36,333 nt of DNA from positions 1 through 36,333 of the forward strand of contig JASHQB010000346.1 of the NCBI GenBank assembly GCA_030037775.1, read 5' to 3'. The stretch is from Candidatus Acidiferrales bacterium (GTDB lineage Bacteria > Acidobacteriota > Terriglobia > Acidiferrales > UBA7541). The notes under the pieces were generated by a model, which was given only the letters and a program-made list of their open reading frames with translations, did no database searches and had not been told where the DNA came from. Below, one piece after another: positions 11,049 to 16,652 of this stretch; the first letter of the stretch is position 1; each line of letters begins with the position of its first letter. The position numbers and the translations under genes are program-made.

Positions 11049-12389
11049 CTATCCACTTAACTCCGGCCGTGTTTCTGAGCGATTTGAAAACTGTGCGAGG
11101 CGGAAGATTCCGGCGATGGCAATCGCTGTCAGCAGAAGGACGGCGGGTTCCATGGGCAGGCTATAGCGTGGAAGGGCGAGGGTAGCGTAGTAGGCGCAGG
11201 GGAAAATGACGGGAAAAACGGCGAGAGGAAACGCGTAGATGCTACGTCGAGACGCGAGAAGCATAATCCCGAGCAACGCGCCAATCCCGGAGAGAAGGTT
11301 GAAGAGCAAGACGTAGCGGAACCACGCGGAATCGTTGCTTTCGAAGTCGCGAAGAGGAGTGGACGTGCCGCCCGACCAGATGGAAACGAAGCGCTCGCCG
11401 AAAAGCGAGAGTTCGCGGAGCGGATGAGTCTCGATGTAGCGGAAGGCCTCGCGTTGTTTCACACGCATGTAATCGATTTCGCCCATCTCGATGTATTTCT
11501 CACGTTCCGATGAATCGTTGATGGGGTGAAGATTGCCGAGCCATGGGGGTTTCGCCTGGGGATTATTCCCAAGCCAGAGCTGCAGTCCCAGGACAGAGCG
11601 AAGCGGCACAAATCTGTGGAAGACGGAGTAGTTGCGCATGGTCCAGGGGACGCAGCAGAGCAACGCGACGCCGAGGGCGATGGTCGGCAGCGCGAGGAAC
11701 CCACGGTTTTCCTTAGGAGCGCGATAGGCAAGCCAGATAAGCAGGAAGGGCAGAAGCGAAGCAAGCGTGGGGTTGGTCATCAGCGTGAGGCCCCAGAGAA
11801 GGCCATAGCCAATCCAGTCGCGCGGGCGCGAAGATTCGGCGAGGGCAAGCGTGGCCCAGAAGATAATAGCGGCGAGGAGGGCCGAAAGGCAGGCGTCCCA
11901 CATGCTTTCGAAAGTGAGAAGTATAGCGTTGGGAAAGACGGCCCAGAGCCCTGCAGCGCTGGCGCCGAGCCCAGTGCCGGCGATGCGTTTACCAGCGAAG
12001 AAAATGGGTATGCACGCCAGGGTTGTGAACAGAATGTTCAGGCCAACCGCGGCGAGGTAGGAATCGAAAGTGTAGGTGCCGAAGACACGAAAAACGCCCG
12101 CGAGAAGGGCGGGATAGACTGGAGTCATCCACGCCGTCGGGCCGGTGGGGACGCGAAACGGAGACGCGAATCCGTGGCCCTGGGCGAGAGAAACAGCGAT
12201 GTTGGAGGATTCGAACATGAAAGGAATAACGCTCAGGGCTTGATGGGAGTTTCTGCCGACGTAGTTCCAGGTGAAAGCGACGCGCAGGCCCAGAGCGACG
12301 AAGAGAATCAGCGTGAGCGAAGTGAAAAAGCCGCGGAGTTTTCTTTGCACAAAGGATGGCTTGCGGTTGGACTTTTCGTCACTGCGCAC
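11049..12389 (-). CDS. GT39/ArnT-like membrane glycosyltransferase
   Basis: The 446-residue polytopic membrane protein has roughly ten hydrophobic segments from residue 22 onward. Its layout is that of dolichyl-phosphate-mannose mannosyltransferase-like enzymes (PMT_2/GT39, ArnT). After the first helix, FESSNIAVSLAQGHGF (Glu60) sits where the catalytic acidic residue of these enzymes lies, and TPVYPALLAGVFRVFG follows. Such proteins transfer sugars from polyprenyl phosphates to lipid or protein acceptors at the membrane; donor and acceptor are unknown here. The start is a GTG at 12389, supported by GGAG nine bases upstream. A short basic N terminus with a KRK-like pattern fits a cytoplasmic start. 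Confidence 0.82.
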   Translation of the reverse strand: MRSDEKSNRKPSFVQRKLRGFFTSLTLILFVALGLRVAFTWNYVGRNSHQALSVIPFMFESSNIAVSLAQGHGFASPFRVPTGPTAWMTPVYPALLAGVFRVFGTYTFDSYLAAVGLNILFTTLACIPIFFAGKRIAGTGLGASAAGLWAVFPNAILLTFESMWDACLSALLAAIIFWATLALAESSRPRDWIGYGLLWGLTLMTNPTLASLLPFLLIWLAYRAPKENRGFLALPTIALGVALLCCVPWTMRNYSVFHRFVPLRSVLGLQLWLGNNPQAKPPWLGNLHPINDSSEREKYIEMGEIDYMRVKQREAFRYIETHPLRELSLFGERFVSIWSGGTSTPLRDFESNDSAWFRYVLLFNLLSGIGALLGIMLLASRRSIYAFPLAVFPVIFPCAYYATLALPRYSLPMEPAVLLLTAIAIAGIFRLAQFSNRSETRPELSG

Positions 12390-12410: not shown

Positions 12411-12439
12411 TATTTACACTTTGCGTCGCTCTTCGTAAA
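12411..12439 (-). promoter_or_regulatory. Candidate promoter for the GT39-like gene
   Basis: On the minus strand, TTTACG (-35, 12439-12434), 17 bases, then TAAATA (-10, 12416-12411). The match is fair for -35 and weak for -10. It leads to the GTG at 12389 and occupies the same DNA as the rightward promoter, so the two would exclude each other. Confidence 0.35.
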
Positions 12440-12441
12440 CT
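12413..12441 (+). promoter_or_regulatory. Promoter for the 52-residue basic protein gene
   Basis: TTTACA at 12413-12418 (5 of 6 consensus) is 17 bases from TAAACT at 12436-12441 (4 of 6). Transcription would start near 12448, giving a leader of roughly 28 bases before the ATG at 12476. The dedicated promoter supports the small gene being real. Confidence 0.5.
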
Positions 12442-12475
12442 GAATTCACGAGGGCCGTAAGGATTTTAGGGAACC

Positions 12476-12634
12476 ATGACGCGGAAACGAAGGCCGAAGT
12501 TTGAGAAGGGAACAGAGGCTCGGCGAATCGCGCGCGAGAATGCCGGAACGCCGCCTCCGGCGCGTGTGATCGCCGACCAGCGGCGCAAGCCTCCCAAACA
12601 CAAGAAACGGCTACTCGAAGAAGATTCCTTCTGA
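12476..12634 (+). CDS. Small basic protein, 52 residues, function unknown
   Basis: An ATG preceded by AGGGA at proper spacing opens a 52-codon frame ending in TGA. The product starts MTRKRRPKFEKGTEARRIAR and ends in a basic stretch (RKPPKHKKRLLEE) with an acidic tail. It is very basic, has no hydrophobic segment and no cysteine, and has a Pro-rich hinge (GTPPPARVI). Its composition resembles nucleic-acid- or ribosome-associated small proteins. I recall no named family, although similar short basic proteins seem to occur in Acidobacteria. It is divergent from the GT39-like gene, has its own promoter, and is followed by a hairpin. Function: unknown. Confidence 0.62.
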   Translation: MTRKRRPKFEKGTEARRIARENAGTPPPARVIADQRRKPPKHKKRLLEEDSF

Positions 12635-12643
12635 TGGATTCTC

Positions 12644-12660
12644 AGGTTCCGACGGAACCT
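12644..12660. terminator. Short hairpin between convergent genes
   Basis: AGGTTCC-GAC-GGAACCT is a perfect 7-base-pair stem with a 3-base loop, 10 bases after the small-protein stop and 13 bases from the stop of the thioredoxin-like gene on the other strand. Its position suits a bidirectional terminator, but neither side has a U tract, so termination is uncertain. Confidence 0.4.
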
Positions 12661-12673
12661 AGCCTTTCGAACC

Positions 12674-13168
12674 TCAACCAGGACGGTGATCGGGAACTTT
12701 TTCACCGGGAAGAAAGACAGACTGCGCCGCTTTTCCGGAGACCTTGGCGAGTTCGGCACCGATGGTCTCCAGGTCGCGCTTGGTGAAGCCGACCGAGGCG
12801 GTGTGAACTGTGCCATCGGGTTGAATGAGGAAAATTGAGGGCACGTTGGTCAGGCCGTACTGCTTCGAGACTTTGTAGCCGTCGGCATCGATCAGAGAAG
12901 GAAACTTCACGCCGAATTCGTTCAGGAACTCGCGGGTGTCCGCGGCCTTATCCTGAGAAATGCCCCAGAAGCTCACCTTCGCGTCTCCGTAGGCTTCGTA
13001 GAGGCGTTCGAGAAAAGGGAAAGTGAACTGGCAGACCGGGCAACTGACTTTGAAGAAGGCTGCCAGAACCGGTCCTTTCTTCAGCGCATCGGCGAGAGCA
13101 TAGTTCTGTCCGCTGACGCTGCCGAGCGCGAATGTCGGGGCCGGTCTTCCGGCCTGAACCGTCTGCAT
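12674..13168 (-). CDS. Thioredoxin-fold TlpA/peroxiredoxin-like protein
   Basis: The 164-residue product has the AhpC/TSA-TlpA thioredoxin fold. An N-terminal segment (VQAGRPAPTFALGSVSG) is followed by the CxxC centre VSCPVC (Cys43, Cys46), a cis-proline segment (NVPSIFLIQPDGT) and a C-terminal helix. The CPVC pair suggests a thiol-disulfide reductase or peroxiredoxin-like role. There is no signal peptide or membrane helix, so it is probably cytoplasmic. I start it at the ATG at 13168 because GGGAGG lies seven bases upstream; the frame stays open to 13237 without another good site. Partner proteins are unknown. The gene is downstream of, but 102 bases away from, the VWA gene on the same strand. 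Confidence 0.85.
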   Translation of the reverse strand: MQTVQAGRPAPTFALGSVSGQNYALADALKKGPVLAAFFKVSCPVCQFTFPFLERLYEAYGDAKVSFWGISQDKAADTREFLNEFGVKFPSLIDADGYKVSKQYGLTNVPSIFLIQPDGTVHTASVGFTKRDLETIGAELAKVSGKAAQSVFLPGEKVPDHRPG

Positions 13169-13270
13169 AATCTTGCCTCCCAAAACCAACGAGAATAGAA
13201 ACTCTAAGCTAATTGTCCGTTCATTTGATTGTAACAAGGCGCCGCGCGATGCACAAAACGAGTGCGTTCT

Positions 13271-14545
13271 TTAGTGGATGTGCCTCGTCTTCTTCTGCAG
13301 GTAATCCATGAGCAGGTACTGGCCGAGGTTATACGGGGTAGTGAAGTAGGCTTTTCCGCGGCAGAGCTCGGTCACTTTCTGGACGAAGTGCACCAGGCTG
13401 TAATCGCTGGCGAGCATGAAAGTATTGATCAGGATGCCGGCCCGGCGGCATTTCGCAACTTCTTCGAGCGTCTGCGTGACAACGAGAGGATCAAGCCCGA
13501 AGGCGTTCTTGTAGATACGGCCGTCTTCGAGTGTGAGCGCAGAGGGTTTGCCGTCGGTGATCATGACGATCTGGCGCATGTCTTTTTTCTGGCGGTTCAG
13601 AATGCGCTGCGCGACGCGAAGGCCTTCGCGCGTGTTGGTGTAATAGGGCCCGACCTGCACGCGGGCCAGTTTGCCGAGGGGGATTTCCTCGGCGCTATCG
13701 TGAAAAAGGACGCAGTGCAGAGAATCGCCGGGATACTGCGAGCGAATCAGGTGCGAGAGCGCGAGCGCCACGCGCTTGGCGGGGGTGAAGCGGTCCTCAC
13801 CGTAAAGAATCATGCTGTGACTGCAGTCGAGCATCAGCACAGAGGCGCAGGAGCTGTGATACTCGCACTGGTGGACCATCAAGTCCTGATAGTCGATGTT
13901 GAGAGGGAAAGTGGGGGAGTCTGCGGCGGTTTGACGGCGCAGGGCATGGAAGAGGGTCTCGGGAATGTCGAGGTTCAGAGTGTCTCCGAACTCATAGGGT
14001 TTGGAGGCGCCGCTGGCTTCGATGCCGGTTGCGAGGTCGCGCGTGTCGTGGCGGCCAAAGCTGCTTTTGCCAAGCGAGGCGAGCAAATCGCGTAAGGTTT
14101 TGAATCCCAGGAAATCGAGAGCTTTGTCCGTGATTTCGAAGCGCGCGTGGACTTCTTGCTTGCCGGGAGCGCTGGCCTGCCCGCCGGGAGTTTGTTGCGG
14201 AGGCGGAGTGACATGCGGCGGCTGCGGTGAAACGTAGCCTTCCTGCGTCAGGCGGTCGATCAACTGGTCGACCAGGTCGCGAAGCTTCTGGTTTTGGTCC
14301 AGGTCAGGATTCTCGAGAAGCTGCTCCATCATTTCCGGAGGCAGAAGATCGCCCTCCTCCAGCGCGCGCAGAATGGCCTGGCGGAGCTGCTCCATGGAGC
14401 GCTCCGGGTCCATCTCCTGAAAGCCATAGTATTGCGAGGCGAAGCCGCTCTGCAGCAAGAAATCAGAGAGGCGATTCATCAATTCCTGCAAGTCGATGTC
14501 ATCGGCTTCTTGCCCGGAGTGCTTCTTGTAGCGGACGTATTTCAT
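13271..14545 (-). CDS. VWA-domain protein, partner of a MoxR/Mg-chelatase-like ATPase
   Basis: The 424-residue product has an acidic helical N-terminal half (about 10-105), a Pro/Gln-rich linker (about 106-130), a short helical region, and a C-terminal von Willebrand A domain from about 233. The metal-site (MIDAS) motif is intact: Asp240-Cys-Ser242-His-Ser244, with a later threonine (TNTREG) and aspartate (ITDGKPS). No signal peptide or membrane segment is seen. VWA proteins encoded beside BchI/MoxR-type ATPases usually act with them as metal-insertion or protein-remodelling machines, as BchD does with BchI. The start codon overlaps the stop of the methyltransferase gene (ATGA), so they are probably translationally coupled. 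The client protein or metal is unknown. Confidence 0.85.
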
Positions 14546-15081
14546 GACGAGAAAGGCGCAGAGCCGGTGCCGGGGATGCGCGGGAGCCAGCGCGCTACCG
14601 TGGCGAGATAGTTTTCGTACGGGCCGTCAAACTTGCGCTTGAGGATGGGCTCTTCGTAAAGCACCACTAGCAAATGGCACGCCGGCATGAGGACGAGGGC
14701 CATCAACAGGATGGAAATCGACCGAAGATAAAAAGCCAGCCCGAGCAGCAGGGCGAGGCCGCCGATATACATCGGATTTCTGACGTAGCAATACGGCCCG
14801 AAGGCGACGAATCGGCGCGGCGGATCAAAAAGCGCGGGCGTGCCGCGCCCTCGAACCACAAAGGTGGCGATGCAAAGAAGCGCGAGGGCCGCACCGGCGA
14901 GCATCAGGACTAAACCGAGCGCGACGGTCGCGGCGGGCAGGGTGAATCTGAGGTTGCGGTCGCAGACGCGAAGCTGCAGCGCGATCCAAGCGAAGAACGC
15001 TATGAAACCGGAGGCATAGAGGATGGAGCGGAAGGCGTTAAACCAAGTTTGAGCAAACAGCGGCTTCGCCGGCGCATTCAT
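14542..15081 (-). CDS. Isoprenylcysteine carboxyl methyltransferase-like membrane protein
   Basis: The 179-residue integral membrane protein has about four to five helices. Its C-terminal half carries the ICMT/PEMT-type signature: GPYCYVRNPMYIGGL (residues about 95-109), an EEP motif, then the KFDGPYENY segment and a VARWLPR end. Members bind S-adenosylmethionine and methylate lipids, isoprenylated cysteines or other membrane substrates; bacteria mostly lack prenylated CaaX proteins, so the true substrate is open. AAGGAGAG lies eight bases before the ATG. The gene begins 14 bases after the ATPase stop and overlaps the VWA start by four bases, so it is embedded in that unit rather than a chance neighbour. 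Confidence 0.82.
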   Translation of the reverse strand: MNAPAKPLFAQTWFNAFRSILYASGFIAFFAWIALQLRVCDRNLRFTLPAATVALGLVLMLAGAALALLCIATFVVRGRGTPALFDPPRRFVAFGPYCYVRNPMYIGGLALLLGLAFYLRSISILLMALVLMPACHLLVVLYEEPILKRKFDGPYENYLATVARWLPRIPGTGSAPFSS

Positions 15082-15095
15082 CGCAGCTCTCCTTT

Positions 15096-16571
15096 CTAAT
15101 TGAACTGGCGGCGCGGCATTCTGCTCTGGGCTTCACGCGGCTCGGGGACCTTGCGCGGTTCGGCGAAGAATCCGCGTTCCTCGCTGCGGTTGATACGTTT
15201 GTGGGCCCAGAGGCCTTCGAGAACAAATTCAGCGGCGGCCACGTGGATGCCAGGGTCATCCTTCGCGTTCACACCAAGAGCCGCGGCATGGTCGAAAAGA
15301 CCCTCGACTTTCCGGAGTTCCGCGAGATGCTCGGCCGTCTTGCCTGACGCTGCAAATTTCAGTTCACCGCCGGATTCAAACCACTGAACGACGGATTGGA
15401 GATTCGCGTCGCTGAAATATCTTGTGAATGTTTTTCCCACAGCCGAGCGGATCAGCTCGCGAGCGATATTTTCCGCGCCGCGCAGCTCTCCTTCGTATTC
15501 GAGCTCGAACTTTCCGGTCATGGACGGAATGGCGCCGTAGATGTCGGCCACGCGCGCTACGGCCGTTTTTTCGCCGTTACGGACGGCGCGCTGCTCGGCG
15601 CTGCTGACGACGTTTTCGAGGCATGAAATCGGCAGTCGCTGGCTGACACCGGAGCGGCGGTCGACACGCTTGTCTTCACGCGCTTGAAAAACGATTTCCT
15701 CCACTACTTCGCGGATGTACGGCGGAATTTCGATGGCGTGACCGTCGCGGCGGGTCCACGATTCCTGGGAGGTGATGGCGATGCCTTCCTCGAGAGTGGC
15801 AGGATAATGAGTGCGAATCTCCGAGCCGATGCGATCTTTCAGCGGCGTGATGATTTTCCCGCGCGCGGTGTAGTCTTCAGGATTCGCGGTGAAGACCAAC
15901 AGAACGTCCAGAGGCAGGCGCACTGGATAGCCTTTCACCTGAACATCCCCCTCTTGCATGATGTTGAAGAGGCCAACCTGAATTTTCCCAGCGAGGTCAG
16001 GCAGCTCGTTGATGGCAAATAATCCGCGATTGGCCCGGGGCAGCAGGCCGTAATGGATGGTCAGTTCATCAGAAAGGTCGCGGCCGCCTTTGGCGGCACG
16101 GATGGGATCGACGTCGCCGATAATGTCGGCGATCGTCACGTCCGGAGTGGCGAGCTTTTCGACGTAGCGGCGCTCGCGTGAAAGCCAAGTAATGGGCAGA
16201 TCGTCGCCTTCGGCTTTGGCGCGGTCGCGGCAAGCGCGGCAGATCGGATGGTATGGGTTGTCGTTGATTTCGCAGCCGGCCACGACGGGAATTTCCGCGT
16301 CCAAAAAGTTTACGAGGCCACGGAGGATGCGCGTCTTGGCCTGCCCGCGAAGGCCGAGAAGAATGAAATGGTGCCGGGACAAAATGGCGTTGGTGATTTG
16401 AGGAATCACCGTGTCGTCGTAGCCGCGAATCCCAGGAAAGAGTTCCTCGCCCGCGCGCAACTTGCGCAGCAGGTTTTCGCGAAGCTCGTCCTTCACGGTG
16501 CGAGCCGCTAATTTCTTTTCGCTCCATTCGCTCCTTCGCAATTCGCTGAGCGAAGTTGGTTTTGTGGTCAT
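15096..16571 (-). CDS. MoxR/magnesium-chelatase-like AAA+ ATPase
   Basis: The 491-residue AAA+ protein has an N-terminal helical region, then the P-loop GLRGQAKT (residues 73-80), in which the usual glycine before Lys79 is alanine. Walker B reads LFAINELPDL (about 184-193), with Asn in place of the usual first acidic residue. The sensor region is VFTANPEDY. A cysteine cluster, Cys100, Cys111 and Cys114 (PICRAC), lies between Walker A and B and could bind zinc. The C-terminal 150 residues are helical. It belongs with BchI/ChlI and MoxR helix-2-insert AAA+ proteins; the VWA gene two positions downstream supports this. The ATG at 16571 is chosen over a GTG at 16619 because the shorter protein matches the ATPase start and has AAGGG upstream. 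Confidence 0.87.
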   Translation of the reverse strand: MTTKPTSLSELRRSEWSEKKLAARTVKDELRENLLRKLRAGEELFPGIRGYDDTVIPQITNAILSRHHFILLGLRGQAKTRILRGLVNFLDAEIPVVAGCEINDNPYHPICRACRDRAKAEGDDLPITWLSRERRYVEKLATPDVTIADIIGDVDPIRAAKGGRDLSDELTIHYGLLPRANRGLFAINELPDLAGKIQVGLFNIMQEGDVQVKGYPVRLPLDVLLVFTANPEDYTARGKIITPLKDRIGSEIRTHYPATLEEGIAITSQESWTRRDGHAIEIPPYIREVVEEIVFQAREDKRVDRRSGVSQRLPISCLENVVSSAEQRAVRNGEKTAVARVADIYGAIPSMTGKFELEYEGELRGAENIARELIRSAVGKTFTRYFSDANLQSVVQWFESGGELKFAASGKTAEHLAELRKVEGLFDHAAALGVNAKDDPGIHVAAAEFVLEGLWAHKRINRSEERGFFAEPRKVPEPREAQSRMPRRQFN

Positions 16572-16652
16572 TGTATCGAAACCCTTTTCTAGAGTGCGCC
16601 CCTCCGCCTCGTGCGACACGAGGAGATTTGCGTCAGACCGTTCGCTCTCACC

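Follow-up and report, generated by a model that had tools for sequence, protein, structure and literature searches.

A small basic protein gene of the class Terriglobia

In the window, that is, the whole stretch of 36,333 nucleotides from Candidatus Acidiferrales bacterium that we analysed, a short open reading frame on the plus strand (12476-12634) encodes a strongly basic protein of 52 residues, MTRKRRPKFEKGTEARRIARENAGTPPPARVIADQRRKPPKHKKRLLEEDSF. Judging from sequence comparisons, the frame is a genuine protein-coding gene under purifying selection, and the protein is restricted to the class Terriglobia within the genomes sampled. It belongs to an orphan family to which no library searched gives a name; this small-protein family is new, and its general kind is known.

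The frame opens with ATG at 12476 and closes with TGA at 12634, which confirms the ATG frame of 52 residues in the earlier note. Homologues were compared in a set of 81 members, in which identical proteins were counted once; L002, L003, L004, L005, L007 and L008 were left out as copies of whole-genome loci, a truncated copy or a chance match. Over 1898 codons, the differences at codon positions 1, 2 and 3 numbered 306, 240 and 783. The pooled pN/pS was 0.26, and pN was lower than pS in all 36 independent pairs of close homologues. The substitution pattern, which the earlier note had named as a check of the gene, thus speaks for purifying selection. Taken together with the class-wide homologues, the third-position bias and the pN/pS ratio indicate a genuine gene, and these two measures exclude a chance ORF. 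It is very improbable that the frame is no gene at all and either arose by chance in GC-rich sequence or represents a leader or an antisense ORF. Such an explanation could draw on the fact that some antisense frames are open in many homologues (69 of the 81 have no stop in frame -2), and because of this the openness of other frames was not taken as evidence. The substitutions stand against it, however, as does the retention of the protein motifs in 233 of 299 class genomes.

Distribution and absences

A search with the single sequence (E<=0.001) found homologues in 77 of the 89 genomes of the family and in 82 of the 95 genomes of the order; in the phylum sample it matched 11 of 297 genomes. 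Profile A1, built from 38 aligned rows, found homologues in 233 of the 299 genomes of the class (193 of 239 when the better-quality genomes were taken alone). The search for homologues suggested in the earlier note therefore succeeded at the level of the family, the order and the class. In the phylum sample, 35 of 297 genomes were positive with A1, of which 33 belong to the class itself and two to the 264 genomes outside it; no class genome is among those negatives of this sample that were listed. The two outside matches are marginal (E ~8e-4). A wider profile, A5, was run on 70 chosen genomes, comprising 13 class negatives or near-negatives and 57 genomes outside the class. Among these 57, no match fell below E 0.001; the best one (E 0.0012) lies within a frame of 293 residues. 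The E values of the two outside A1 matches rise to 0.026 and 0.044 with A5, and we rejected them as homologues; they are probably chance matches. A Geobacteraceae match (L008) was rejected as well, being a short chance match within a longer frame.

In the family, order and class searches, nearly all genomes with a match had a single copy of the gene. In the family search, G016 has two copies on two contigs (C39:2084-2224 and C154:13304-13450), which may reflect contamination or duplication.

Among the genomes listed, the gene was not found in class families f85 and f89 or in most of f88. Eight of the ten genomes that lack it in at least one search also lack a close match to the thioredoxin-like protein encoded next to it in the window (E<=1e-20), so many of the absences may represent missing or diverged sequence. 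The earlier note had taken the lack of homologues in relatives, or frame-breaking differences in close strains, as arguments against the gene. Homologues exist, and one frame-breaking case was found, in the draft genome G002 (L194), where a deletion takes out the C-terminal half of the gene together with the hairpin that follows it. This deletion fuses the middle of the small gene to the tail of the adjacent thioredoxin-like gene, and may be a true loss or a misassembly. With several class families lacking the protein and a draft genome in which it is truncated, it cannot be essential to every member of the class. In G444 (L196, family f88) we observed a diverged frame, KKKKKFDVVKQVKSLSR..VKTPPGKLIQSKKKK, which has the N-terminal half of the family and TPP, and does not have the KHK motif. 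This frame suggests that the family may be wider than the profiles reach.

Protein sequence and predicted structure

The window protein contains 17 K/R and 7 D/E among its 52 residues and has a pI of 11.46. For the 81 family members, the median pI is 11.4 (10.2-12.0), the median K+R content is 35%, and the length is 45-60 residues. The approximate consensus over A1 and A5 is MxxRKKKxFxxxKEARRxARxxxGxPPxxRVIPDKRRKPPKHKKxLxE, with a conserved core formed by the basic helix KEARRxAR and the following GxPPxxRVIPDKRRKPPKHKK. In the window, the basic helix segment EKGTEARRIARENAG covers residues 10-24 (12503-12547, plus strand); a helix at residues 10-23 is predicted there with low confidence. The extended Pro/Lys-rich segment TPPPARVIADQRRKPPKHKKR covers residues 25-45 (12548-12610, plus strand). 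Both segments are supported by conservation. R20 is invariant in A1, and R20, K41 and H42 are invariant in A5; A19, G24, P26 and K43 are nearly invariant in one or both of the profiles. All these most conserved positions are basic, Gly, Ala or Pro, and none is hydrophobic. After the basic arm comes an acidic tail, LLEEDSF.

AlphaFold2, run with seven sequences, gave a helix at residues 10-23, an extended arm and a helix at residues 41-51 (pLDDT 66, pTM 0.23). Such a low-confidence model of two helices and an extended arm is expected of a chain that needs a partner. A Foldseek search of the PDB with this model returned no structural match. Searches of Pfam, NCBIfam, PHROGs, PADLOC and the PDB sequences gave no family match beyond single weak hits. 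Two of them, to archaeal uL16 (0.0004) and to L36e (0.02), each came from one of 38 members, and we judged them compositional. Among the entries listed by the literature search there was nothing on the protein, and none of the papers searched contains the string KPPKHKK. The description of the product as undescribed and strongly basic with a Pro-rich middle thus holds.

Start signals and neighbouring genes

Upstream of the small gene, on the plus strand, lie a -35-like hexamer TTTACA (12413-12418; 5/6 of the consensus) and, 17 nt further, a -10-like hexamer TAAACT (12436-12441; 4/6). This is the sole sigma-70-like site with 9/12 matches in 2.4 kb, where 0.4 are expected. In upstream regions of the homologues, promoter-like sites with at least 9/12 matches occur in 9 of 80, compared with 1.9 in shuffles. 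The site announced as a promoter in the earlier note is found as described, and promoter-like sites are enriched across the family. Of three congeners, G038 alone has the same hexamers and spacing, the -35-like hexamer differing in the two others. It is plausible that the small gene has its own promoter, with this pair as a candidate sigma-70-like site. The gene probably has its own transcript, because it persists while the upstream genes vary and because promoter-like sites are enriched. The ribosome binding site stands less firmly: the purine-rich stretch at 12459-12472 (plus strand) offers two candidates, AAGGA (12459-12463) and AGGGA (12468-12472), but both are weak. At least 4 nt of AAGGAGG are matched in 22 of 81 family upstream regions, compared with 12.3 in shuffles, which is a weak enrichment.

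The small gene is flanked by a divergent glycosyltransferase-like gene (PMT_2; 11049-12389, minus strand) and, on the other side, by a convergent thioredoxin-like / AhpC-TSA family gene (12674-13237, minus strand), whose own reading frame may contain its true start. This thioredoxin-like gene forms a block with VWA and MoxR-type AAA genes (12674-16619, minus strand) that is kept across much of the order. Across 39 loci (the window and 38 others), the convergent thioredoxin-like gene is nearby in 15, VWA in 14 and MoxR-type AAA in 13. The thioredoxin-like gene lies directly downstream on the opposite strand in 14 of 21 own-order loci. In Acidobacteriaceae-like loci (Acidobacteriaceae being a guessed label for family f4), these three downstream genes of the order are absent beside the small gene; the neighbours there presumably include a SIMPL-like gene, an M50-like protease and TrpRS. 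The upstream genes vary while the small gene is kept, which argues that it is no operon-specific accessory. Across the loci examined, no constant gene partner hints at a function, and the gene is not part of a ribosomal operon.

Phage and plasmid collections, the latter searched with a class homologue instead of the window protein, gave no match, and an origin from phages or plasmids was rejected. A defence gene was rejected as well, PADLOC giving no match.

Possible function of the small protein

Positions fixed as basic, Gly or Pro, the lack of a hydrophobic core, the lack of a constant partner gene and retention in one copy by most of the class together fit a protein whose folding takes place on some abundant RNA. 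We tentatively favour the reading that the small protein may depend on RNA and serve Terriglobia as an accessory protein, probably bound to the ribosome; this agrees with the earlier note, which had likened it to RNA- or ribosome-binding small proteins. The ribosome is taken as the likeliest RNA partner, the precedent being bS22 and bL38 of Borrelia, which PMC10618245 describes as unannotated small basic proteins detected inside the ribosome by cryo-EM and mass spectrometry. The small protein, having no hydrophobic core, would become ordered on RNA, most likely ribosomal RNA. Its helix KEARRxAR would follow a groove in the RNA; at GxPPxxRVIP the chain would bend, and from there its KRRKPPKHKK arm would reach into the rRNA, as in the accessory ribosomal proteins bS22, bL37 and bL38. 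On this reading, the protein would bind RNA, reside in the ribosome and help to stabilise or assemble it, with no catalytic role. A so far unseen class-specific ribosomal protein of Terriglobia, an accessory subunit that folds on binding and is unrelated to bS22, bL37 and bL38, is a weaker possibility. In being small, basic, mostly single-copy and widely kept in its lineage, the small protein shows traits expected of lineage-specific ribosomal proteins. The ribosomal reading is weakened by the absence of any sequence or profile link to a ribosomal protein and by the position of the gene outside ribosomal operons; moreover, the basic composition would also fit binding to DNA or polymerase. The pooled codon usage is not ribosomal-gene-like (-0.04 log-odds per codon, 574 codons, 11 genomes), in a test with crude ORF picking and small ribosomal sets that barely separates ribosomal from other genes and is of no help here.

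We compared the family with known small ribosomal proteins. bS22 (AURKAIP1/COX24 domain, PF08213) is found in mycobacteria and Cutibacterium, with analogues in Borrelia and Flavobacterium; its binding site is the 16S h2/h27/h44/h45 pocket. Like the small protein, it is very small, very basic, lineage-restricted and missed by annotation, and by eye the two share a K[R/K]...KH[K/R]K stretch; unlike the small protein, bS22 has about 33 residues and is mostly basic. The profile comparison with bS22 covered 8 columns, and its score was reached by 19 of 100 permuted controls. In the Pfam scans, the small-protein family did not match PF08213, and this domain was above the cut-off in none of 13 own and related genomes. 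bL38 (Flavobacterium, Borrelia) is likewise lineage-restricted and was found as a ribosomal protein by cryo-EM and mass spectrometry; its description there comprises beta strands plus one short helix (PMC10618245), whereas the model of the small protein has only helices and an extended arm. In searches of the PDB, profiles A1 and A5 found no bL38-like chain. Among the 30S proteins, bS18 and bS21 are small and basic as well, and the bS18 pattern G..P.R[VI]...KH resembles the small protein by eye. A degenerate bS18 was rejected, since the hhalign score of 10.0 is exceeded by permuted controls, which reach 14.1. Canonical bS18 and bS21 are both present in all 13 own and related genomes, so the small protein does not replace them. 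Identity with bS22, ArfA, Sra, bTHX or bS21 was also rejected, as hhalign scores stayed at the level of column-permuted controls; several of these ribosomal-protein comparisons rest on one or few sequences (for bS21, one E. coli sequence).

ArfA and Sra are short, basic, ribosome-bound E. coli proteins of limited distribution, and act as a ribosome rescue protein and a stationary-phase ribosome-associated protein, respectively; ArfA recruits RF2 to stalled ribosomes. It is unlikely, though conceivable, that the small protein is a conditional ribosome factor of this kind (hibernation, rescue or stress) and not a constitutive ribosomal protein. Its size, its charge, the plausible own promoter and the patchy presence inside the class would agree with such a role, and its RV..[DN]K[RK].K...KH stretch bears what we take by eye to be a resemblance to part of ArfA. 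However, in profile comparisons with one E. coli sequence each, the scores for ArfA and Sra were reached by 46 and 21 of 100 permutations, and the ArfA family PF03889 was absent from all scans of the small protein. A basic protein associated with the nucleoid or with RNA polymerase is rather unlikely. DNA-binding tails look similar to basic, Pro-rich arms in which K/R and PP alternate, and the lack of ribosomal gene context would suit this explanation, but no known DNA-binding family was matched in Pfam or NCBIfam. The acidic tail that follows the basic arm could also mean that the protein is held by charge in some other complex (enzyme, membrane or stress) as a small subunit or regulator. Small regulators of enzymes exist; yet no gene partner is constant across the class, and we regard this explanation as quite improbable.

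Terriglobia are abundant soil bacteria. If the favoured ribosome-bound accessory protein does reside in their ribosome, it would be a subunit specific to the lineage and an example of ribosomes growing through small orphan proteins. If it is a class-specific ribosomal protein, the rRNA pocket that holds it would be peculiar to this lineage among acidobacterial ribosome features; no acidobacterial 70S cryo-EM structure was found among the titles and the beginnings of abstracts covered by the literature search. If it is not ribosomal, it would be a class-wide RNA- or DNA-binding factor. A protein that most of the class keeps and that no searched library names makes a clean target.

The hairpin between the convergent genes

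In the gap between the small gene and the convergent thioredoxin-like gene lies a hairpin, AGGTTCC-GAC-GGAACCT (12644-12660). The hairpin with its tail motif (12644-12676) was found in 48 of 81 loci, using as the sole anchor the tail motif, which closes with the stop codon of the convergent gene. All 48 loci can form 5 or 6 of the 6 hairpin pairs. In total, 275 of 288 pairs can form; exchanging arms among the loci left no more than 261, and shuffling the letters no more than 177. Pairs 3, 4 and 5 covary (GC/TA, TA/CG). Around the hairpin, Rfam gave no match at E<=1, and a known RNA element was thus rejected.

In the subset of loci selected for pairing, the distance from the hairpin to the stop of the small gene ranges from 8 to 177 nt. 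The distance to the thioredoxin-like stop is near-fixed; this is partly imposed by the tail-motif anchor and is also seen in the pairing-selected subset. The hairpin is also present 3' of the thioredoxin-like gene in G050, a genome in which the search gave no small gene. Among 14 mispaired or wobble cells, nine are A-C or C-A on the plus strand, which corresponds to G-U on the minus strand, and one is G-T, kinship between the loci inflating these counts. The near-fixed stop distance, the presence in G050 and the mispairs favouring a minus-strand transcript argue that the hairpin is tied to the convergent thioredoxin-like gene rather than to the small gene. The hairpin that the earlier note had assigned to the small gene is thus real, conserved and covarying, but its assignment to the gene's own unit is not supported. 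On the plus strand, a U-run follows the hairpin in most loci and is interrupted in the window (AGCCTTTCG). Given this U-run, the hairpin may also terminate the transcript of the small gene.
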